A stretch of DNA of 64,000 bases from Phorcus lineatus (taxonomy: Eukaryota > Mollusca > Gastropoda > Trochida > Trochidae), in assembly GCA_921293015.1 (NCBI GenBank), contig OV121081.1:69519022-69583021 (forward strand), read 5' to 3'. The notes beneath the pieces were generated by a model. That model saw nothing but the letters and a program-made list of their open reading frames with translations. It searched no databases and was not told where the DNA came from. The translations under genes and the position numbers were made by a program. Each line of letters opens with the position of its first letter. The first letter of the stretch is position 1. Shown here piece after piece: positions 1 through 62,359 of this stretch.

Positions 1-2684
1 TTCTGATGTTTTCTGCAGAAGACAATTTTGTTCAGCAATTACACTAGTATCATACTGCCATAAAAAAATTAGTTGTTATTTTTATCATTATATTATTGTT
101 ATTATTTCGTTTTGCAAATATTTCACTATTTCTGTATGTTTCCCCGTTCTTTTTTGCTGTATCCTATTTGTTCAGAAACAATTATCAGCATTCAATTGTG
201 TGAAGTGGCTTAATATTTGCTAAACTCGCTGGGCATAAAGATAACCTTAGCATTAGAACAACGAATGTATTGTTAAGTTTGTTTTTTTCAATTTGGCTAT
301 AACGAGCATGTACAGAATAAAATACAATTAATAAATAATGAAAACTTTACTGCAGTCAAAATCATAAAGGGATATAAAAAGTTTTAAAAAAGGCTAAACG
401 TGGAATATTTTCAGTTTGCGAGTAAATTTAAGTCTCTCTTATGAACGAAGGCTGAGATATTTGTTATTAAGATGGATATGTATACAACATATAAACATTG
501 CTGTTATCAAAACAGAGGCTGCCCTTTTTGGTTCTCAGGCTTTTTAAAAAATTACATTACCAATATGGATATGGTCATAAATTGTTTTTATAACTTATCA
601 GTTTAAGCTTTGCTTAGAGCAAGTGTTTATGTTTGAGGAGGGGCCATAATCGTCCCAATTCATGAACTCTTGTTTACAGATGTAAGATAAGATAAGATAA
701 TTCCATTCATTAGTAACAAAAGTTTTTTGGGACAGTAGAAAATATCACATGTTTTGTTCAAAATAGTAAATATATCATTTGAATTTTAGAAAAACAACAT
801 TTAAATGTTGATGAGAATGAAAAAATTAAATTATTTTCTGTAAAATAGAACTTTCTCACAAATTATTTCATTCGAAGAGAAACAAGGCAGCATTGCTTGA
901 GGGTTGGTAATTAAGTGGATTTGCATCAGAGAGAATATCTTATACGTGGCCAAAGTATCAGAGGATTCGTGATTACACTATGTACTACTGACAGTTCTTC
1001 TGGGAATATCTCAGAAACCATAAAATACTTTATATACTTTATTCCAAAGACATTTAACAATTACTGACAGACATGAATATAGTTTTCAATAAATATGTAA
1101 CTCATTGTTTAAGAACCCTTATATGTGATGGCAAATGTGTTATCATTTTACACGGTTACAAACACTATTTGGTTCTTATATATATTTAAGTGGGTAAATA
1201 AAACAATCTTAATAGTGTGACCTAAATTTTTAATGTCCCAGGACATTCACACTTGTTTGTCGTTTCATAAATGATACAATGCCGCCTGGATTAATCATCC
1301 TACAAAAACTCTGTCATTGTTGGACGTCCCTGTTTTAATATTTGTTTTTGCACTTCACGGTGGAATAAAAGTTCATAACTCAGCACACAAATGTTATAAA
1401 TCCTAGAATTGCAATCTCTGTGAAATTAAACCATTGTCTATTTCGTTATTTTTATCCATTGCTCGGAAATATTAGATAAATATATTTCCGACCTACATGT
1501 ATATAGTGGGAGTTATTACAAGATTGAAAGGATTCTGTTTCAAGTATGGCATTACTGAGAGGGGATTCAAATTACATGTATGTACAGTAAAGACCTCATA
1601 TTAAACTTTAAAGTTCAGTTGTAAATGACTTCATCGATTCCCCCATGTAAAGTAAATAAAGGGAAACAAAGAAAAGGTAAGGATTGGCGGATTATAATAA
1701 TTTTGTTGGCATGAAGTAAACAGAGTTGTTTCTTTTTTACGTTTTTTCCCCTATCTTCTTAGTTGAAGTCAATGTCAATCAACTATTGCTCTTTACTGGT
1801 TGGTTTACTGAAAGTTCCTTGAAAATTATTTAAAACTATCATCTCTAAAAGAAAATTAGAGTTTTGTTTTATGAAGCCAGAAGAGTACCGCAATGCACTT
1901 AAAGTTTACTGTATTCAAGGAGCAATTCAAACATTGCGTTTGTTTTCTAGTGCATTTCACTGTGTAAAACTCTATGTTTCACTATATATTTCAATATTTG
2001 TTCTCATGCGTACTAGATGACCTTACAGACTACTCTGCTTCTCCAGTTACAAAGGTTTATGTCGTTGTATTTCTGATAACATTGGAAATATTTGTGAATG
2101 CTTTGTTTTTCTTTTGATAGCATCTTTATATACATCTGATATATCTTTAGCAAAAAAATCATTTGTTCTTTTTTTTAAGTTAAACTTTTCCTTGAAAAAT
2201 GTTTTTTTACGTGTATAAATACATTCCCATCGACCAGATGAAATGAAGGTCATCGTATGAACCCGATGTTCAGAGATACAACTAGAGATACACGATTACG
2301 CTTTTGTACAAACGACCTCATATATTATACTCCGACACTATCAGCTCCTGTCAACTATGTAATTTATGATAATTCCATTATTCATGATAAATATGTCTAA
2401 AGGTACTTCAGTTCAGGTATCACGTTACCCGTCAAAACATGACACTACTTATAGGTGCATTATGGTTTAACAGAGGATTAGACCGAAATATAACATCAGC
2501 AACTGTCTTCTTAATGTTGAATGTGCAAAACAGAAACATGAATCATTGTGTTGAACTGCTTTTTCTATGTAGGGTTTTTGTTTTTGTTCCTGGCCATGTA
2601 TTTTGATAAAACTTGATAATCTTGACCGTTCAACAGTCAAATCATGACATTGAAGTGCATTTGATCAATTTCTATATAGTTGCC

Positions 2685-2688
<4 letters not shown>
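1..2688. other. AT-rich non-coding stretch, no gene recognised
   Basis: Both strands contain only short open frames without a recognisable domain. I see no transposon ends, RNA gene or strong tandem repeat. It reads as ordinary intergenic or intronic animal DNA. Confidence 0.6.
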
Positions 2689-2768
<80 letters not shown>

Positions 2769-2784
2769 ATATATATATATATAT
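2689..2784. repeat. (TA)n microsatellite
   Basis: About 75 bases of uninterrupted TA dinucleotides are followed by a short A run and then another 16 bases of alternating AT. The tract is self-complementary and could extrude a cruciform. A similar tract lies at about 34.2 kb. Confidence 0.97.
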
Positions 2785-4199
2785 TTATGTGATAGCTCAT
2801 AATGAGATAGATATTAGGAGGAAAACTTGCCCATTCTTATGTTAACCTTTCATTCGCCCATCCATAATAAAACCTTTTTCTGATTCCTTTCTGAAAAGTT
2901 TTTCTTTCTAAAAGACTTGATTTGCAGCATGTGGTATGTTTTTTAAGTTGCATCACTAAATCCGCAAAAAAGTTGTTTTTAAAAAAATTCATCTTAACAA
3001 ATAAGCCAATGAAAAACACTTCCCACAAAGGAATGGAATCTTTTGAAAACACATCTCTACCGCAACTACTAAAGTAGTTGTATTGATGGGTTTAACAAAT
3101 CATTTTAGACTGTAATGATTGAGGAGTTTGATTGAGTTGTTACACGTGGGTGGCCTTCATGGGATTTGTAAGCACCCATTTCTCTTAATTTTCATCTGAA
3201 ACATGTTTATTCTTATCATTATTTATCATAAGAATATAACCTTAACAAAGATAAAACCTGACCTACCGTACTCTTAAAATATCATATATTGATACAATCA
3301 GTTTTTGAGCTAATAGAACACAGAAACCAAATAAAGTTATGGATGTTTACTTTTGAAACCAACTAGGATTTAAAAAAATATATATTTGACAAATTAAATC
3401 ATTGGTTTTGGACTTTTGTAGTTACTCATACAAGCCTCGATATAGAAGAAGGTCACTTTATTATGCAAAATCTAGTCTAATCTAGTGTAATGTTGGCCAT
3501 ATAAGGTGCCCCGTGATGTTAAGTACCAGTTTGTGTTACTTTTCTTTGTCAGATGATGTTTCCAGAAATTAAGATTATCTATAACCAAACAGAACAGTCA
3601 CAAACATGAGTACAGTGTCACGTTTACCGCCTGTTGGCAGACTTTTCGTAGACCTTAACAGATCTAATAGGCCTCCTACATATGTCATAGATAAATAACA
3701 GTCTGGGTCATCTTGAAATAGCCATCATGTCGTCCATAGAGGTTACAGAAACCTTTAAGTTTTATATTAAACTATATATATCAACACATATCTTGTCCTT
3801 TGCTAAAGGTTCTTGACCTCCATTAAAGAACGTTGCTTAAGAATTATCTATCTCTCTGTGTGTAGACGCTGATCTCACAATTATGCTATCGGATGTGCTG
3901 TCAGTGTTTCGATATATTTCATTCATTATTCATTTGAAATTTTCCTATTTATTCAAACCTAAGTTATGATGTATCTTAAAACAGATCACACTCCTTGTTA
4001 TCACTGACATAGCAACAGTGTCTTTCTGTTTATCATCAAGTAAGTGACTCCTAATGATTTATGAACAAACATATTTTGAAACCTTTAGTTGAAAAAGTAT
4101 TAAAATTAAATAAAGTTGATTAAAGGAATATTTTAAGCGATTGCATGTTCAGACCACAAAGCACTTGACTCAGTACATTGATATTTAAGTTAAATAAGA
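2785..4199. other. non-coding stretch, nothing recognised
   Basis: Only short chance open frames are present, none with a recognisable motif. Confidence 0.55.
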
Positions 4200-16803: not shown

Positions 16804-17894
16804 TTCTTTAAGAAACATTAGTAGAATAAGCATTTTGTTTCCAGATTTGACTATGATTATACAGATTCCTTATATATTAAAATGCCAAAGAATTCCATCT
16901 CCCTGATCACAGGTTATGACATTTTGAATAACATTTGATAGTAACATTTCTCTAAAATACCATTTCATTAGATGAAGAATAACTTGTTCCTTGATCGAAA
17001 CACTCTGTAGAAGATGACGTACGTAAATAAGGAAACTCTTGCTCTTCTTCAGAGGTTTGTACATTCTAGTCTAATTTGATTTGCCATCTTCTCTTGTTAG
17101 ATAAGCAGCAGAGAATATAACATGTCTTTAGCCCTTGGCTTCTTCAAATCGAATATGCATGATGTGTAGATCAAATAAAATGAGCTTACATGTATTTATG
17201 TATTACACCTTCTCAGCACTAAGAATAAAAAGATACTGTTTAGATTAGGATGAGTGAGGATCATCAGACAAGCACGATCTATTGTTTTTTTTCTTTCTGA
17301 ACAGATATACAGGTAGATGGAACGTATATTATAGATTTAAAAAAATGTGTATTGGCTCGGGATAATTTGGTCTTTATCTGTATTTATCATTGGAAAATGC
17401 TGATTCATTTGCAAAATTAAGTGTTGAGTCTTTCCAATGCGTTTAAAATATGCCATTTTTTTATGGAAAGGTTAAATCCTTTTCTCTATGATTTTAATTT
17501 ATTTCGTCAAATAAAAGTGGAAAATCTGAATTTCAGCTACAGTAAATAAATTTTCATTTTTTCTTATTATATGTTCATTTTAAACACTAATCAGTTTTAA
17601 TTTAGTTTCTCGTTTGTCATTAATTATTTCCAACGTTGCGTTTGCTTACATGCACCATCATTGGCTATTAGCAGTCATCACAGGACCAGAATTTAACTGA
17701 CCATTGTCTCAAATGAATGAGACATTTATGACTTTGCTTTCAAATATATTTCCAATCATCATCACCAAAGATTTTACTCATCAATGCATGTTTTCTTCCT
17801 ATAGGCCTGCGTTTAGGTTCTGTTTGTCATCTATAAGTTTGAAAACCCTGAGTTTATTTACTATAAGTGATCTTTTATGCCAAATATTACAATT
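16804..17894. other. non-coding stretch between two transposons
   Basis: About 1.1 kb with no recognisable gene. It is the original genomic sequence between the LINE and the palindromic-TIR element. Confidence 0.5.
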
Positions 17895-17901
17895 TAAATT
17901 G
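17895..17901 (+). repeat. candidate target-site duplication, left
   Basis: TAAATTG abuts the left end of the palindromic-TIR element and recurs directly after the right end at 20,410-20,416. The terminal TA can be assigned to element or target, so the duplication is between 5 bp (AATTG) and 7 bp (TAAATTG). Confidence 0.65.
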
Positions 17902-17903
17902 TA

Positions 17904-17924
17904 CAATCTGATTAAAATCAGATG
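17904..17924 (+). repeat. left terminal inverted repeat, palindromic
   Basis: This is a perfect reverse complement of 20,389-20,409. Its 18-bp core ATCTGATTAAAATCAGAT is itself a palindrome with an AA centre, so each end can form a small hairpin or bind a symmetrical protein dimer. Confidence 0.92.
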
Positions 17925-17941
17925 GAATTCCGCTTGTTTAA

Positions 17942-17988
17942 TTTCGTTTCGTTTTATTTCCGTTTTGTTTCGTTTCGTTTCGTTTCAG
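17942..17988. repeat. (TTTCG)n-like microsatellite
   Basis: Repeated GTTTC/GTTTT pentamers end in three clean copies of TTTCG just inside the left TIR. No equivalent tract lies inside the right end, so it expanded on one side only. Confidence 0.85.
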
Positions 17989-18005
17989 GTTAACAAGCTA
18001 TATTC

Positions 18006-18135
18006 CATCTGACACTGCCCCGTTAAGTTGAATGTCCCGGGCTTACGAGAATTAACCAATCAAAATCTAGGCCAATAATGCCATCACCCTGGACTCCATA
18101 CAGCGTATGTTCGGTGTTGCGCGGAGTTAGGCATG
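18006..18135 (+). promoter_or_regulatory. left promoter-like end of the palindromic-TIR element
   Basis: In order there are CATCTGACACT (18,006-18,016), AACCAATCA with a CCAAT box (18,056-18,060) and GGCATGGCGGAA with an ATG at 18,133. The same order occurs in mirror image at the right end. The interval is CpG-rich and no TATA box stands out. A small frame from 18,133 to 18,231 (MAETADLLQVLRSVYSAVV...) encodes only 32 residues and is unrecognised. Confidence 0.5.
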
Positions 18136-18361
18136 GCGGAAACAGCCGATCTGCTCCAAGTGCTTCGTTCGGTGTATTCCGCGGTGGTTTTCCCTCGCAT
18201 ATGCGCTGCGACACAAAGATGGTTCAGTTAGCATGTTTCTTCAGCGATCATTGAATATTGACAATTCATGTACTGTAAATATAAATATTTGAAAAATGTA
18301 GATATTGACAGCAAGCGCCATGTCCTCCTGTCTTACACCCAAACGGGTATTGTATTGTAAG

Positions 18362-18523
18362 ATGAACATTTGCGTGATATGTGGTTTCTCTTTTGTGCAA
18401 AAGGACATTTCAGAAACGGGTGCCGAAATTGTAAGAAAGTATTTTAAAGAAAACCTGCTTTTGAGTGAAGAGAAAGTAAATACCATAAAGAAGGCCATTG
18501 ATGTCGTTGTTAACCTCCTTTAG
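18362..18523 (+). CDS. short ORF with CxxC zinc-finger-like start, probably a first exon or remnant
   Basis: The frame begins MNICVICGFSFVQKD and runs 53 codons from this ATG to a stop (an in-frame start also exists at 18,305). After the stop the same frame gives GNQKEFRRFF. A CxxC pair followed by a charged helical stretch resembles the beginning of treble-clef/ZAD-like zinc fingers, but the second cysteine pair is not seen. No function can be assigned. Its position inside the element, in the left half and pointing inward, suggests it belongs to the element and not to the host. Confidence 0.35.
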   Translation: MNICVICGFSFVQKDISETGAEIVRKYFKENLLLSEEKVNTIKKAIDVVVNLL

Positions 18524-18842
18524 GGAAACCAGAAGGAGTTTAGACGGTTCTTTAGCGTAGAATAGAAAGTTAGGACGCTTTTACTTGAAATTCTGCTAAT
18601 ATTTGTGTGAATATGGACTTTAATCGTGCTTTTACAGGCTATAATGTGTAAAAGTTAGGAAAGGGGCCGTGTGTTTGGACGGGGTAGCGACCAAAGTGCT
18701 GCATCGTTTCCACACAGACATTTTGCCGATAGTTGGTCAAAAGGTTTGTTTACCTGTAGATTCCTTCGTCGTGATGCGCCAATGTGAAATTAAAGTGTAT
18801 AACAGAAAAACAACACTTTTGACCGTGTTTTAGACGGTTTTA

Positions 18843-19171
18843 TTATCCCGATCGGGATGTTGGTTCCCGAACGGAAACTGGTACCCGATCGAGGGGTGTG
18901 CAGAACCTGACAACGATCCGAGGCGAAGCGTGTTCGTTCCTTGCTTTTACCCCCTTACAGTACATGTGAAAGGGTAGTGATTTACCATAACCAGTGGGCA
19001 GAATTGCCATACAATCTTTACGGTCCAGTAAACAATTCAAAATTTTGACTTGTTCGGTTTCAGTTCGGAATTTCCAAATTCTTCAGCTATTTCGCGGGGA
19101 TGCGGTGATTTCGTAGACACGAAATCCGGTGAACTCGTAAACAAATCGAGCAGTGACTTTGTAGACAGGTT
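18843..19171 (-). pseudogene. RecQ-like DNA helicase fragment with P-loop
   Basis: The minus strand reads SPHPREIAEEFGNSELKP and, after what looks like one missing base near 19,050, EQVKILNCLL followed by DRKDCMAILPTGYGKS. This matches the start of RecQ-family helicases: an FG..LKP.Q motif 0 followed by motif I (P-loop, PTGYGKS), with LPFHMY continuing. RecQ enzymes are superfamily 2 ATP-dependent 3'-5' DNA helicases. Nothing after motif I (DEAH box, later motifs, RQC, HRDC) is found nearby, so only about 75 residues survive. It starts within the 24-bp-period repeat at 19,080-19,171. It may be an exon of a larger gene or a captured fragment. Confidence 0.65.
19080..19171 (+). repeat. inverted-pair arm with 24-bp internal period
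   Basis: Three successive units begin GTGATTTCGTAGAC, GTGAACTCGTAAAC and GTGACTTTGTAGAC, 24 bases apart. The segment matches 20,108-20,210 in inverted orientation, sharing GCGGTGATNTCGTAGACA. Because 24 is a multiple of three, it translates as 8-residue repeats on both strands (for example GDFVDTKS / GELVNKSS on plus). Confidence 0.6.
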
Positions 19172-19885
19172 TTAAAATAGGATTAGAAGTAATAATAACA
19201 AACCTTTATTTATCAAACTGAAGGATTCGAACACTAATAGGTTCGATTAAAGAAATAAAGTGAATAAAACCTTTAAATAGTCAATTTTGTTGTGTTTTGA
19301 AACTATTAAAGTAATCCAATATTCATGTGTTATTTTCAATTCTTTTAGTTCTTGTTTGATCTTTTAATAAAATGAATTAAGGTAACAGGCCCTCCTGTCT
19401 AATACTTTGCCTTTCGTTTGACTGACCTAAAATGAATAATTAATCAATAATATATGAATCATTTACAAATGAATTACTCGTGTTTGTTATTATTTCTGAT
19501 GCTTTGTCATCTTCAATATCTGAAAGTTATATTAATATTTCGATTACCTCTCCTATGTTAGCAACAGTGTAGGTTTAGTTTTGAATATTCAAATTTCTCG
19601 ATCGTTAACAATTTCACTTTGTCTCCTTCTCCTGTTAGTTTTGTAATATTTTATCTTTTTACCTTTTTTTTACATTTAAATATTTGTGTATATAACAATA
19701 AAAACATTGCCATATAGTCAAAAGTTCGGACTTGAAGAATTCAAACAATTTAGTATGTAACATTCAATATTAATCACTATCTGGAATTTCTAAGAATGTT
19801 TAACAACTTCTATGAGGGTCTGAAGTCGACATGACGAGCCAAAATGCTGATATTTTCAATATATATAGTTTTGGTGCTGGTTAAG
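19172..19885. other. internal AT-rich spacer of the palindromic-TIR element
   Basis: About 0.7 kb without recognisable coding sequence, lying between the inverted-pair arm and the GGCCCAGTG cluster. It may be a later insertion or a non-coding remnant. Confidence 0.4.
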
Positions 19886-20045
19886 TACTGAGCCAGTGCC
19901 GGTTTGATACAGTATGCCACTAATGGCCCAGTGCCGCACCAGCGTTGATAAACCGTAACGGCCCAGTGATGGCACACGGCAATGGGCCAGTGTTTTACAC
20001 AGCACTGGGCCAGTACTAGTCCGATGCTAAATTGCTTTCTGGGAT
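19886..20045. repeat. GGCCCAGTG motif cluster
   Basis: Near-copies of GGCCCAGTG occur five times within 120 bases (about 19,890, 19,925, 19,960, 19,985 and 20,004), at spacings of roughly 35, 35, 24 and 20. One copy is embedded in the palindromic GCACTGGGCCAGT. The cluster is GC-rich against AT-rich surroundings. It may be a nested short repeat or a protein-binding array. Confidence 0.55.
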
Positions 20046-20107
20046 GATATGAACTACTATAAAAGATAATAATTATTAAAAATAAGAGTCAACATTGACT
20101 TAGAAAT

Positions 20108-20214
20108 ACAAATTTAATACTGTCTACGAATTTACTGTCTGCGAAATTCCCGTGTCTATGAAATATTTTGTCTACGAGATCACCGCAAGCCATTTCGCGT
20201 ACTTCGTCCGCCAT
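20108..20214 (-). repeat. inverted-pair second arm with small ORF
   Basis: Read on the minus strand this begins ATGGCGGACGAAGTACGCG (ATG at 20,214) and encodes MADEVREMACGDLVDKIF followed by NFADSKFVDSI. The GDLVDK / NFADS / KFVDS pattern repeats like the plus-strand translation of 19,080-19,171. CCGCCATTTT around the ATG also matches the YY1-type consensus. The frame closes at about 20,089, so it is short. It could be the first exon of a gene read leftward. Confidence 0.45.
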
Positions 20215-20341
20215 TTTGAATGGTGACCCGAACAATGGAAGTAACGCGTAATCTGATTGGTTATAGCTCAATAGGTTGTTGGTAGGAAGTTCAAGGACGA
20301 ATGTCAATCTGGTGACCCCTCTAGCGGGATAGTGTCAGATG
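20212..20341 (-). promoter_or_regulatory. right promoter-like end, mirror image of the left end
   Basis: Read leftward there are CATCTGACACT (20,341-20,331), AACCAATCA (CCAAT at 20,260-20,256) and AAAATGGCGGAC with the ATG at 20,214. Order and orientation mirror the left end, so the element appears to carry two inward-facing promoters. Confidence 0.5.
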
Positions 20342-20388
20342 TTAGTATCGCATATTGATGATGGACAAAAGTTAAGCGCGCGATACAT

Positions 20389-20409
20389 CATCTGATTTTA
20401 ATCAGATTG
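20389..20409 (-). repeat. right terminal inverted repeat, palindromic
   Basis: This is the perfect reverse complement of 17,904-17,924. The candidate target duplication TAAATTG follows at 20,410-20,416. Confidence 0.92.
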
Positions 20410-20416
20410 TAAATTG

Positions 20417-21304
20417 TAAATATTGTGATTATCAAAGTGAAAAGAGACATTTATGAAGTTTTAAACAAGCAGAGTTTGATAGACATAAGGAAAAAAATTA
20501 ATTCTTTACATAAATTCTTAACGTGTTTTTACTCAATTTCAATTGAAACCTAATAAAAAAAACCTTTTTAATGAGTTCATCTAATTGGCTGAATGTTAAT
20601 ATTGTATAACCACTTTTCTGAAGCATAATTACATTCGCAAGAAAAAGAGGGTTTGCTGATAGTTGGGATTGATCCCATATTTGTAAAATTCAGTCACAGA
20701 CACTCACTATATGTACACAACTTTTTTTGTGTTTCATTTTCTTATGCTTTCTATAAACAAAAAAACCCGAAAGCTTGAGAAGTCTGTATTTATAATGTGT
20801 GCTATGGGCACATAATTAACATTTTGAATATAACTAGATTTGAAAAATAACAACTGGCAAATATAAAACATAACACTTCCAAACAATATATGTAACCTTT
20901 AACCGTGTTTCTCAATATTACAATGTAGTGTATTTGTGCCCTTTTTGACTTATGGCAAGAACTTGTGTTTATTTAGTTGAGTTCGCATAGAGGAAAAATG
21001 AAATAATTCGAGGTTAGTAACAAGGAGATATTTTATGTTAACAATAACACAAACCAACAAGAACATTAGTTTTCGTTCTGGAACTGGTGACTTAAGAAGT
21101 GATGTTGCTATTTATGACTGATATTTTCAATATATACCATGTTTGAGTAATATTATTACTTGAGAATAATCTGACAAAGACACCAGGTAAATCTTGAATG
21201 ATGAAAAATGTTCCAAAGCATCGTTAACTAAGCCACATAGCATTATATTGAAATAAGAAAACGTAATCTATGAACTAAGGGAGAGCGATATGTTCATGTG
21301 TACA
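20417..21304. other. non-coding stretch between two DNA transposons
   Basis: No gene or sharp repeat is recognised in these 0.9 kb. Confidence 0.5.
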
Positions 21305-21306
21305 TA

Positions 21307-22593
21307 CGAGGGTTGTCCCAAAAGTTTTCGGCCTGAATATGAAAACATGCCTGAAACGCAACCATACTGTGCGTGCATGAAGAACCTTTATTGACGAGTA
21401 AATGGCATGAAAATAACGAGATGCATGCTCTTCAATTGCAAATAATAGCCTGTCAATCTAAGATACCCTCACATCTTTTACCGAAATGGAGAAAAGTGAA
21501 TGTGAATGTGAATATCTGAGTTTAAAAAATACACTCCAAAGGAAATTCATGGGGATATGTTTCAAACATTAGGTGACTCTGCTCCTTCATATAGCACCAT
21601 TAAACACTGATGTGCTGAATTTAAACGGGGAAGAGTTAGCACTAAAGACGAGCCCGATCCTGGTCGTCCATCTGATGTCACCACACGTGAAAACATTGAG
21701 GCTATTCTTGATACAATAATGCAAGACAGGCGAGTGACTATCGGATACTTAGCTGATACTCACCACATCAGTAAAACATCAGTTATGCAAATTATACATG
21801 AACATTTACATATGAATAAGGTTTCAGCACGCTGGGTCCCCAGAATGTTATCTGAGGACCAAAAGCAAAAACGTCTAATGGTCAGTCAGCAACTTTTTGA
21901 CAAGTATCGCGCAGACCCAGAATCATTTTTCGCTCATGCCGTTACTCAAGATGAAACCTGGGTTCATCATTTTGACCCTGAGACAAAAAGCCAAAGAATG
22001 CAATGGAAAAAAGGACATCACCCACCCCTAAAAAGTTCGAATCTTGTTCCTCCAGTCGGAAGATCATGGCACCCGGTTTTTTTGGACTCTCGGGGTGTAA
22101 TAATGATTGATTAATTAAAGAAAGGTTTTACAATCAATGACACTTATTACGCAAATGAACTACGACAATTACGAGAAAAAATCAAAGAGAAACGAAGGGG
22201 TAAACTGCGCAAAGGTGTGTAACTGTTGCAGGACAATGCTCCCGTTCACACCGCCCAAATTGCAGTCGGTGCAGCACACGATTGTGGGTTCAGGATTCTC
22301 CCCCACCCTGCCTATTCTCCTGACCTTGCCCACTCAGACTTCTTTCTCTTCCCTCGACTGAAAACAGACCTCCGTGGCCAAAGGTTTGGGACTGACGATG
22401 ACAATATTGCTGCAGTAGAGGAGTTTTTGGGATCTCTTGATAAAAACTGGTTTTCAGATGGGTTGCAGATGTTACAAAAACGCTGGAGCAAATTCATTGA
22501 GGTCAAGGGTGATTATGTCAAAAAATAAGTCATAAAAGTTTGAATGTTTCTTTGATTTTGACGGTCAGGCGGAAATGTTTGGGACATCCCTCG
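21307..22593 (+). mobile_element. mariner transposon, full length but inactive
   Basis: The element starts CGAGGGTTGTCCCAAA and ends with the imperfect complement TTTGGGACATCCCTCG. A TA dinucleotide lies directly outside each end (21,305-21,306 and 22,594-22,595), as expected for Tc1/mariner insertion. At 1,287 bp it has the normal mariner length. The inverted repeats are about 30 bp with a few differences. The only ORF is the transposase, broken by stops, so the copy is dead but kept both ends. Confidence 0.95.
21486..22528 (+). pseudogene. mariner transposase (D,D34D), inactivated
   Basis: The transposase would bind the inverted ends and cut and paste the element. The N-terminal helix-turn-helix region contains YTPKEIHGDMFQTLGDSAPS and the linker GRPSDVTTRENIE. 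WVPRMLSEDQK follows. The catalytic triad is visible as D in TQDETWVHHF (about 21,950), D in LLQDNAPVHT (22,232) and D in AYSPDLAHSDFFLF, with exactly 34 residues between the second and third D. The C-terminus ends KGDYVKK, as is usual for the family. In-frame stops lie at 21,608, 22,112 and 22,220, and the start ATG at 21,486 is in another frame from the main body, so at least four lesions have accumulated. Confidence 0.95.
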
Positions 22594-39649: not shown

Positions 39650-41866
39650 AAAAGAAAAGGACTGATTACTATCAACAAAAACAGGACAAGATAGAAGGAA
39701 ATATTAATAACTCTAAAACCTTTTGGTATGAACTGAAAATGTCTGAATGGTTGAAAGTTGGAAAAAAAAACCAATATACTCACCAGCGACTGGTGTAAGC
39801 ACTTTAAAGACTTGTTTGAAATTAACGATGAATGTATTAACGAGAATGACAAACCTCAAAACTCATCTCTGTTTGTAATAGATCTGAACCATGAGCTCAC
39901 GCAACAGATTCTTGATTCCCAAATTACAAGAGAAGAAATTTCAGATAGCATAAATAACCTGAAACAAGATAAATCTCCAGGCATAGATAACCTACTACCC
40001 GAATTTTTAAAGTATTCTATAGATTTCATATTACCTTATCTTGAACTTGTATTTAATTTGATTTTGGAAAGGGGCGTATTTCCTCAAGCGTGGTCAGTTG
40101 GAATTATAGTTCCCATACACAAACAAGGGGATTTAAATAATGTGGAGAACTATAGGGGCATAACTCTATTAAGTATATTTAGTAACGTCTTTACTACGAT
40201 TATCAATAAAAGATTAATTTTCTGGAGGGGAAACAATATATAAAATTAGTGAATCACAGGCAGGTTTTAGACAAGTACTACTACTGATAACATGTTTGTA
40301 CTATAGTGTTATAGTGTACTATAGTGTTATATATGCTATAGTGTTTTAGCGAGATATCTTAATTCTCAAGGGGGTAAATTTTATGCATTATTTGTTGATT
40401 TCTCCAAAGCTTTTGATTCTGTACAAAGACACATAAGCTATGAGATTTATTCAGAAGCGGTTGATTGACCAGTAAAATGTCAGAATCATTAAACAACATA
40501 TACGAGAACGTGAAAGCCTCTGTAAGGAACAAACATGAATTATCAGAATCTGTTGATGTACAAATCGGTGTAAGACAAGGCTGTGTACTTAGTCCATTTT
40601 TATTCTCCTTTTTTATTAATGAATTAGCGCTGCGAATAGAAAACAACTTCAAAAATGGTATCCAGCTACATCCGGATGTGTTCCAAATTTTCCTTCTACT
40701 TTTTGCAGATGACATTGCTCTTATTTCAAGTACTATTGCTGGTCTACAGAAGCAAATAAATGAACTGGAACGTTATTGTGAACGGTTTAAACTAAATGTG
40801 AATATGGAGAAAGCTAAGGTTGTTACGTTCAAGAAAGGTGATCGTCGCATCATGAACAATGGTACTTTAAGGGTAACTTGATAGTATCAGCAACTTCATA
40901 TAAGTACTTGGGTGCGTATTTTACTAATCATCTTTCCTGGTCAACCCATGTTAAGTACGCATCTGTCCAAGCACAGAAAGTATTAATCAGTATTATAAAA
41001 TTTAAAAATACTTGGAGACTTGAATCTTGCATCTTATTTTAGAATATTTGATGTGAAAATTAGTCCAATTCTATTACACGGGTCTGAAATTTGGGGTTTT
41101 CAACATTTTGAGCAAATAGAAAGAGTTCATTTATTAGCATGCAAGAAATTCCTAAGGATAAAGATTAACACACCTAATGCAATGGTATATGGGGAATGCG
41201 GGAGGTTTCCTCTTGTAATAGACTCACAAGTTAAGATTATAAAATACTGGCTGAGACTTCTTACTATGCCTTCTTATCGCTTCCAAAAAAAATGTTATGA
41301 AATGACCAAAATGGACAAAAGAATTGGATAACAAAAAGAAGCTATTATTCAAAACAAGATTTAATTATATTTGGTATGACCAAAAGGTTGATTTACCAAC
41401 AAGATTTCTAAACTCATTTTCACAAAGACTTAGAGATATCAACAAACAAACTGGCTATATAAACTTTCCATTTCCTCTAAATGTGAGTACTATTCAGCTT
41501 TTAAACCATACATTTATACTGAATATTATTTATCATGTGTTAGTACAAGAACGTTCAGAATAAGTTTATCACGCTTCCGATGTTCATCGCATGATTTATG
41601 GATTGAAAAGGGCAGATTTCTTAACATGAAAAGAGAGGATAGACTTTGTAAATCATGCAATAACAACGTATTGAAAGATGAATACCACTTTCTGCTCGTG
41701 TGTCCATTTTATGATGAATTACGTAAATAATACCTTAAAGAGTATTATTGTGTCCATCCTACTAGAGATAAATTCTTATCTTTATTAAACTGTAAACTTT
41801 TCGTTGTAATTCAAAACCTTGCAATGTTTATATACCACGCATTTAGAATCAGACAGTGACAGTAAA
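39650..41866 (+). pseudogene. LINE reverse transcriptase with C-terminal zinc knuckle, broken
   Basis: Conserved blocks in order are KQDKSPGIDNLLPEFLKY (39,960), GIIVPIHKQGDLNNVENYRG (about 40,100), FYALFVDFSKAFDSVQRH (about 40,380), GVRQGCVLSPFLFSFFINEL (40,567), LLFADDIALIS (40,690) and KLNVNMEKAKVV. Downstream come ISPILLHGSEIWGFQHFE (41,070) and NAMVYGECGRFPL (41,180). At the end is a CxxC...H....C knuckle, LCKSCNNNVLKDEYHFLLVC (about 41,650). The pieces are in different frames, and a stop interrupts the last block at ELRK. A local expansion at 40,299-40,348 breaks the frame just before the A box. Confidence 0.9.
40299..40348 (+). repeat. 18-bp tandem expansion inside the LINE RT
   Basis: TACTATAGTGTTATAGTG is followed by TACTATAGTGTTATATAT and a third partial CTATAGTGTTTTA. 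It lies between the AGFRQ and FYALFVDF blocks, where other elements of this type have a short non-repetitive loop, so it arose after insertion. Confidence 0.85.
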
Positions 41867-61166: not shown

Positions 61167-62359
61167 AACTCTTCAAAAAAAGAAACTTGACACTGACTTT
61201 CAAAGTTCAAGATAAAGACCACAGATGCATGTTAAACATTGAAATGAAAACTAAAACGCTGTTTAAAGATCTCTGTTCAGTGAATTTTATTCAGAATAAG
61301 CATGATCTTGAAATGCACAGGTGCACAAGTGTTTCAACATCACAGGGGTGCACAACTGTCATTTTCGGAGGAATAACGTAAGGCTGTAGGATCAAGTCCC
61401 TATACCGTACTCCTGTGAGGTTACCCACAACATGCACAAGGGGTGTCCTAACACCGTGACGAATCCCGGTCCACACCATGGCACTCCCACCTCCAAATGG
61501 GACAACCTCCTGAACACAGTTGGCAGCATAATGTTCTCCACGACGTCGGTATACACGTGCTCGTCCATCACTTCGTCGAAGCAGAAAACAGGACTCATCA
61601 GTGAAGAGAACGGTTCTCCACCTTGCACGTGCCCATCTCATGCTCTGTTGACACCACTAGAGACGTTCCGCCAGATGACGTTGCGTTAAACCGGGACGTC
61701 GAACCGGGCGTCGTGGAAAAAGTCCAGCCTCTCTCAGCCTGTTGCGTACCGTTTGGTCGGAAATTCGACGAAGGCCTGGTATCTGCGTTGTTGTTGACGT
61801 TGCTGTCCTGGTGCGTTCCCGAAGGTGGAGCAGTCGGATGTACCGATCTTGGGCCCGAGTAGTCACCCTTGGTCTGCCTGACCTTGGCCTATCATCAACG
61901 CTGTTTCGGGTGTTAAAACGGGTCCACAATGAAGAGATGGTCTGTCTGGATACGCCAAAGTGTGTTGCAACATCTCGCTGCGTCGCTCCTGCTTGCAGTC
62001 TGCCAATAGCGTTGTTGCGTTGCGTCTGTTCAGTCTTGCCATTCTTCAGGTCGCTGTACCGATGTTGTGTAGTCTGAATGAACAGCGGCTGATATGGCTT
62101 TTTATACTCCTAAAGCAAACGTGTCTGCATGTAAACCTGCATGATCCCATGCTGCACGTGCTTTGGCAGAAAATGCATTTGGACGAATCGCTCGTTTTCG
62201 TCCCTGAACACAACGTAAGCTTTTTGTGCCATTGTTTTTGGTAAATTTACACTTTTGAGCAAGCCTTTCTTTAAATTACCGGTATGTATCATGAAATTTT
62301 TTACCCGTTTCGAAAAAATCAATTTCGCATGAATGTCAAGTTTCTTTTTTTGAAGAGTT
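61167..62359 (-). mobile_element. Tc1-like transposon with perfect ends and internal deletion
   Basis: The first and last 26 bases (61,167-61,192 and 62,334-62,359) are perfect reverse complements beginning AACTCTTCAAAAAAAG. TA lies directly outside each end (61,165-61,166 and 62,360-62,361). At 1,193 bp it is shorter than usual Tc1-like elements (about 1.6 kb) because the transposase gene ends before its second catalytic residue. It cannot transpose on its own but could be moved by a related active transposase. The identical ends suggest fairly recent activity compared with the other elements here. Confidence 0.93.
61291..62042 (-). pseudogene. Tc1-like transposase, truncated
   Basis: ATG at 62,042 opens MARLNRRNA. 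After a shift the helix-turn-helix region follows as RLQAGATQRDVATHFGVSRQ, TISSLWTRFN and then GRPRVTTRAQDRYIRL, with the GRPR motif. A second DNA-binding part reads ISDQTVRNRLREAGL. The first catalytic D is in RTVLFTDESCF (about 61,600), followed by VYRRRGEHYA, FGGGSAMVWTGI and RYRDLILQPYVIP. There the homology stops: the segment with the second D (DNARPH) and the third acidic residue is gone, and the frame runs into the 3' sequence and ends SRSCLF. An in-frame stop at 61,654-61,656 splits the frame. Lesions are therefore one N-terminal shift, one stop and a deletion of perhaps 400 bases. Confidence 0.92.

Follow-up and report, generated by a model that had tools for sequence, protein, structure and literature searches.

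Miniature transposons are usually traced back to a single founder that has spread. MuDR elements duplicate about 9 bp of target sequence, and Helitrons are not known to leave a target duplication. For the AcademH lineage, the description in PMC10045372 gives target duplications of 9 or 10 bp together with a helicase; Kolobok elements duplicate TTAA, and as summarized in PMC9587614 the KolobokH type is reported from fungi only. Here we analyze an element at positions 17904–20409 of a 64,000-nt window of Phorcus lineatus DNA, the window being the whole stretch that was analyzed. As a matter of classification this element is ordinary. What is new is that its family consists of two size classes, and that the short copies carry differing joints.

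The element is flanked by a perfect 9-bp direct repeat, rather than the 5–7 bp repeat given in a preliminary description of this DNA, and its terminal inverted repeats (CAATCTGATTAAAATCAGATG) are perfect over 21 bp, just as that description had it, or 23 bp long when TA, two bases of the duplication, is included:

17895–17903, plus strand: left target-site duplication, TAAATTGTA, identical to 20410–20418
17904–17924, plus strand: left terminal inverted repeat, 21 bp, with near-palindrome
20389–20409, minus strand: right terminal inverted repeat, 21 bp
20410–20418, plus strand: right target-site duplication, TAAATTGTA

Each 21-bp end contains ATCTGATTAAAATCAGAT or its complement. The palindrome first described within each end does exist as a self-complementary terminal 18-mer, but it is a near-palindrome, with a 2-bp centre between 8-bp arms. 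From base composition, a 9-bp match at one fixed boundary has a chance of about 8e-6, and the best of 20 dinucleotide shuffles gave an inverted pair of 18 bp, compared with the 21 bp of the real sequence. The window holds 134 exact inverted pairs of at least 14 bp, and outside (TA)n arrays the pair bounding 17904–20409 is the only one that adjoins a direct repeat of at least 8 bp. The left flank at 17888–17903, TACAATTTAAATTGTA, is itself a 16-bp palindrome, created in part by the duplication.

Searching the 958-Mb host genome, with the reversed 18-mer as control query, we found exact copies of the terminal 18-mer at 762 places (389 + 373), compared with 6 (2 + 4) for the control. Pair statistics rest on the first 100 of these 762 places, i.e., the matches listed, among which there are 42 pairs less than 3 kb apart, one 10-kb pair and 14 singles. 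The 42 close exact pairs comprise 19 short ones (131–170 bp) and 23 long ones (1673–2506 bp, the window's own included), with none in between; the sequences examined were those of all 19 short pairs and of the 22 long pairs lying outside the window. With CA...TG taken as the terminal bases, exact duplications bracket 33 of 38 end pairs (10 bp in 22, 9 bp in 11), compared with 0 of 1406 when flanks are swapped, and the other five have either a 10-bp duplication with one mismatch (three pairs) or none (two). Four further long copies have duplications of 10, 10, 9 and 10 bp, and the 55 short copies scored below have 10 bp in 24 cases, 9 bp in 22 and no exact duplication in nine. The genome-wide search that the preliminary description had proposed for its end pair thus finds the pair flanking similar interiors, and the ends are joint boundaries. 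This confirms a genome-wide family of DNA transposons with palindromic inverted ends.

The 10-kb pair (L010, L011) was considered as a complete copy and rejected: it has no duplication at its ends, contains one 141-aa ORF twice, in opposite directions, and is called composite. In other collections the end pattern gave no match among genome contigs and one among viral contigs (L001), which we attribute to chance, since the 261 of its 2880 bases that were read show one end and, by eye, phage-like coding DNA.

Read inward from the tips, the two ends are built in the same order: the near-palindrome is followed by a second fold-back and this in turn by an inner site, CATCTGACACT, which is exact at both ends:

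17918–18012, plus strand: left second fold-back, with arms 17918–17938 and 17992–18012 (86% complementary) and a TTTCG-rich apex
18006–18025, plus strand: left inner site, CATCTGACACTGCCCCGTTA, the left edge of the stretch absent from short copies
20322–20341, minus strand: right inner site, the right edge of the stretch absent from short copies
20334–20395, minus strand: right second fold-back, stem GTATCGC/GCGATAC (z −2.64; 3 of 200 shuffles this low)

The motif ATCTGA occurs 54 times across the window and eight times in the element, where six of the eight copies lie in the ends, three in each. The left inner site CATCTGACACTGCCCCGTTA has 188 exact copies in the genome, compared with none for its control, and the inner sites are kept in all 19 long copies compared, one of them with a base change. 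Folded as DNA, 17917–18013 reaches z −4.12, with 0 of 200 shuffles as low; the second fold-back stems differ between the left and right end. The entire ends fold at z −2.13 and −2.15, and in these folds the second fold-back forms and the outer palindrome does not. On the left both structures use the same CAGAT arm and they are therefore mutually exclusive. When the ATCTGA motifs are removed, 8 and 237 of 5000 shuffles attain the pairing of the end stems, and the spacers have ordinary free energies (586 and 200 of 1000 shuffles as low). Both the shared arm and these ordinary inner-spacer energies weaken a reading of the ends as hairpins.

The short copies lack the interior: their left end runs to about the left inner site and is joined there to a right end that begins near the right inner site. 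Of the 14 singles, 11 pair with a short partner end carrying at most three changes, and these recovered copies together with the short pairs made up a first set of 30, from which three lost the script anchor (L086, L089, L095) and two were misplaced (L049, L090), leaving 25 scored. A second set was obtained by DNA search with the short copy L036, scoring 40 of 792 candidates and hence selecting for likeness to L036; it held 32 short copies, two of which were lost (L124, L125), leaving 30 and bringing both sets to 55.

Among these 55 copies, 33 breakpoint pairs and 43 joint strings can be told apart, and in the first 19 short copies every joint string differs. Counting positions into the site as positive, the left part stops between −8 and +6 bp and the right part between −16 and +7 bp from the inner-site edge, where the lower limits are partly fixed by the script anchors and the upper limits are free of that effect. 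In one of the copies left out (L090) the break by eye lies further out, within the TTTCG run. Among the 25 joints of the first set, 20 have an overlap of 0 to 3 bp and five have 1 to 3 added bases. The copies thus record insertion with a 9- or 10-bp duplication, as well as a middle that was lost repeatedly at the inner sites. These losses look like recurrent internal deletion focused on the inner sites, caused by cutting there or else by repair that stalls at the fold-backs.

We favour cutting, and with moderate confidence regard 17904–20409 as a non-autonomous, long-class copy from a cut-and-paste family of AcademH type with several hundred members, whose short copies arise by cutting at the inner sites followed by end joining. 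A DDD/E transposase supplied by complete relatives would bind the ATCTGA sites, three per end, pair the ends and insert the element with a stagger of 9 or 10 bp. The same enzyme would also cut at the inner ATCTGA sites, so that the middle is lost, and end joining would close the gap, losing a few bases, using short overlaps or adding bases in the process; each short copy would then be a scar made more or less anew. Two observations favour cutting: in the scored copies the retained sequence never extends more than 7 bp into an inner site, and the outer cut likewise falls 2 bp outside an ATCTGA. What speaks against it is that copies of the inner segment alone are not found: on contigs 1 and 2, each of the 22 exact matches listed for the left inner site adjoins an outer end, so the piece cut out does not seem to reinsert. 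A stronger version, which we put forward only tentatively, is that the family has a second, inner set of cutting sites at which its own transposase drops the middle, most miniatures being separate products made in place and not the offspring of one founder. The suggestion that the ends have a bearing on the mechanism gains some support, since the deletions behind the short copies go no further than the inner ATCTGA sites within the fold-backs; recognition of the hairpins as such is hypothetical.

A close rival keeps the AcademH-type family but has the short copies come from interrupted gap repair. After the element has left, strands copied from a sister copy would fold back at the second fold-back, stop there and get joined. 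Most breakpoints do fall within the second arm of the respective fold-back or close to it, both fold-backs beat shuffles when the motif is included, and the joints show the small overlaps and added bases given above. However, the free energies of the spacers are ordinary once the motif is removed, and the wall at +7 bp is sharper than stalling needs. We consider this account possible, though less probable than cutting at the inner sites.

It is unlikely that the short copies are simply one ordinary miniature family that has drifted through point changes and small indels. Joints do recur, the commonest breakpoint pair being found in eight of the 55 copies and three other pairs in four each, and some short copies may descend from one another. 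But drift from one ancestor fits poorly with 33 breakpoint pairs, with family sequence flanking each joint and with added bases at some of them. Moreover, both right-end variants occur in short copies (ACG in 7/19, AAG in 12/19) as well as in long ones (ACG in 4/19, AAG in 12/19, other in 3/19), which argues for several origins of the short copies against one.

The interior of the long copy is decayed, and contains the following features:

18079–18523, plus strand: remnants of a possible left gene (ORFs 18079–18231 and 18302–18523; no Pfam match; best PDB E 0.061)
18843–19082, minus strand: helicase start carrying RecQ/DEAD motif 0 and a Walker A motif (LPTGYGKSL); the reading frame is interrupted upstream
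19085–19096, plus strand: left near-duplicate, AGCTATTTCGCG, matching 20188–20199 at 11 of 12 bases
19101–20187, no strand assigned: AT-rich nested insertion whose inverted ends are imperfect; left boundary placed to within 4 bp
20188–20199, plus strand: right near-duplicate, AGCCATTTCGCG
20188–20214, minus strand: probable first codons of the helicase gene (MADEV...), by eye in ORF 20089–20334 (minus), which alone has no Pfam match

The ORF at 18843–19082 matches Pfam DEAD at E 0.0013, and 18936–19067 does so at E 6.4e-4, with 19.9 bits compared with a cut-off of 26; all Pfam helicase scores fall below the curated cut-off, and the best support from PDB is a RecQ match at E 0.015. The stretch 19037–19171, which by eye continues the helicase start, has a weak and unrelated Pfam match. 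When the genome is searched with a protein from a related copy, 170 matches result, this helicase place among them. In another copy (L099) one ORF holds both a comparable start and the helicase motif, and two pieces on the same strand match DEAD positions 4–33 and 87–130 in that order (E 0.011 and 0.021), the second containing DEFHVIALW by eye. No relatives of the helicase piece were found in phage records, and of 40 stretches matched by its pattern in viral contigs none was confirmed; searches for Rfam families and tRNA were also negative. Of the two gene fragments proposed earlier, the helicase-like one is thus supported, if weakly, while the second amounts to short ORFs without a family match.

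The arms of the nested insertion (19101–19119 and 20169–20187) are 95% complementary, its GC content is 0.322 compared with 0.417 and 0.432 outside, and a 12-bp near-duplicate this good arises in 9 of 3000 random placements. It has probably cut off the first codons of the helicase gene at 20188–20214 from the remainder. The insertion is ancestral to this group of copies, and not private to 17904–20409, because its motif TCGTAGACA is found in 23 of 23 long copies. Degenerate copies of the GTGATTTCGTAGACA motif, inverted, are found at both of its ends.

The preliminary description recognized no transposase, and indeed none of the 30 ORFs of at least 40 aa in this copy has a Pfam match to one. 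Neither was a transposase of the family recognized in the scanned pieces of L097–L099, although Pfam may hold no Academ model. L097 (7.3 kb between ends) and L098 were rejected as complete copies, since they contain other repeats and no recognizable family transposase. Inside the long copy L098, a 394-aa ORF (2459–3643, plus strand) has Psq and Tc5-like helix-turn-helix matches (E 0.0013 and 0.048). Elsewhere in the window there is a 167-aa ORF (21611–22114, plus strand) that by eye resembles a decayed mariner-type transposase and has weak Pfam helix-turn-helix matches, a non-LTR retrotransposon remnant (39755–40881, plus strand; RVT_1 E 6.4e-17 at 40465–40878) and pieces of a Tc1-type transposase (61291–62109, minus strand; HTH_Tnp_Tc3_2 E 8e-9).

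Taken together, these sequence features indicate that the family is probably AcademH-like. The spread of the duplications over 9 and 10 bp makes AcademH likelier, the decayed DEAD and RecQ matches would agree with its helicase, although all the Pfam scores fall below the curated cut-off, and a deleted copy would lack the DDD/E transposase. The superfamily is not proven, because no transposase is recognized here or in the scanned pieces of L097–L099. The under-described superfamily suggested earlier finds no support, since the duplications and the helicase-like piece agree with the account of AcademH in PMC10045372.

It is improbable that these are non-autonomous MuDR-type elements that have taken up a fragment of a host RecQ gene. 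A duplication of about 9 bp is indeed present, and the scanned pieces (this copy and L097–L099) contain no MuDR transposase that could decide the matter, but a helicase piece common to many copies (170 matches) does not look like a single-copy capture, and AcademH by its description combines both features. A relative of KolobokH or of Helitrons, in both of which helicases can occur, is ruled out for practical purposes by duplications that are 9 or 10 bp long and vary in sequence, where the one should show TTAA and the other nothing.

The birth step of miniatures becomes directly open to study here, because the joints of dozens of short copies differ while falling at the same two places, and it can be linked to a defined site adjoining the fold-back ends. 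We noticed no published account of such repeated joints among titles and abstract openings on miniature copies and internal deletion, though one may exist. The closest relative by description is the AcademH lineage of Academ (Kojima 2020; PMC10045372, PMC10799480), which has the same 9 or 10 bp duplication and a helicase to which the decayed pieces here probably correspond; no transposase is seen in our family, and the comparison is one of descriptions, not of end sequences or size classes. KolobokP with its solo end repeats, as outlined in PMC9587614, likewise involves excision of a part within a larger element that leaves scars, but there the end repeats are excised, with a 3–5 bp duplication, whereas the elements studied here lose the middle and keep their ends. 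The scars of Ds excision, with their V(D)J-like joining, are in the account of PMC1978519 likewise ascribed to end joining with small overlaps; a Ds scar comes from a whole element, whereas here the element remains and is scarred between two of its inner sites. MITEs, finally, are likewise short, with two ends and no genes, but they are called structurally homogeneous in the abstract of PMC6850418, whereas the joints here vary copy by copy.
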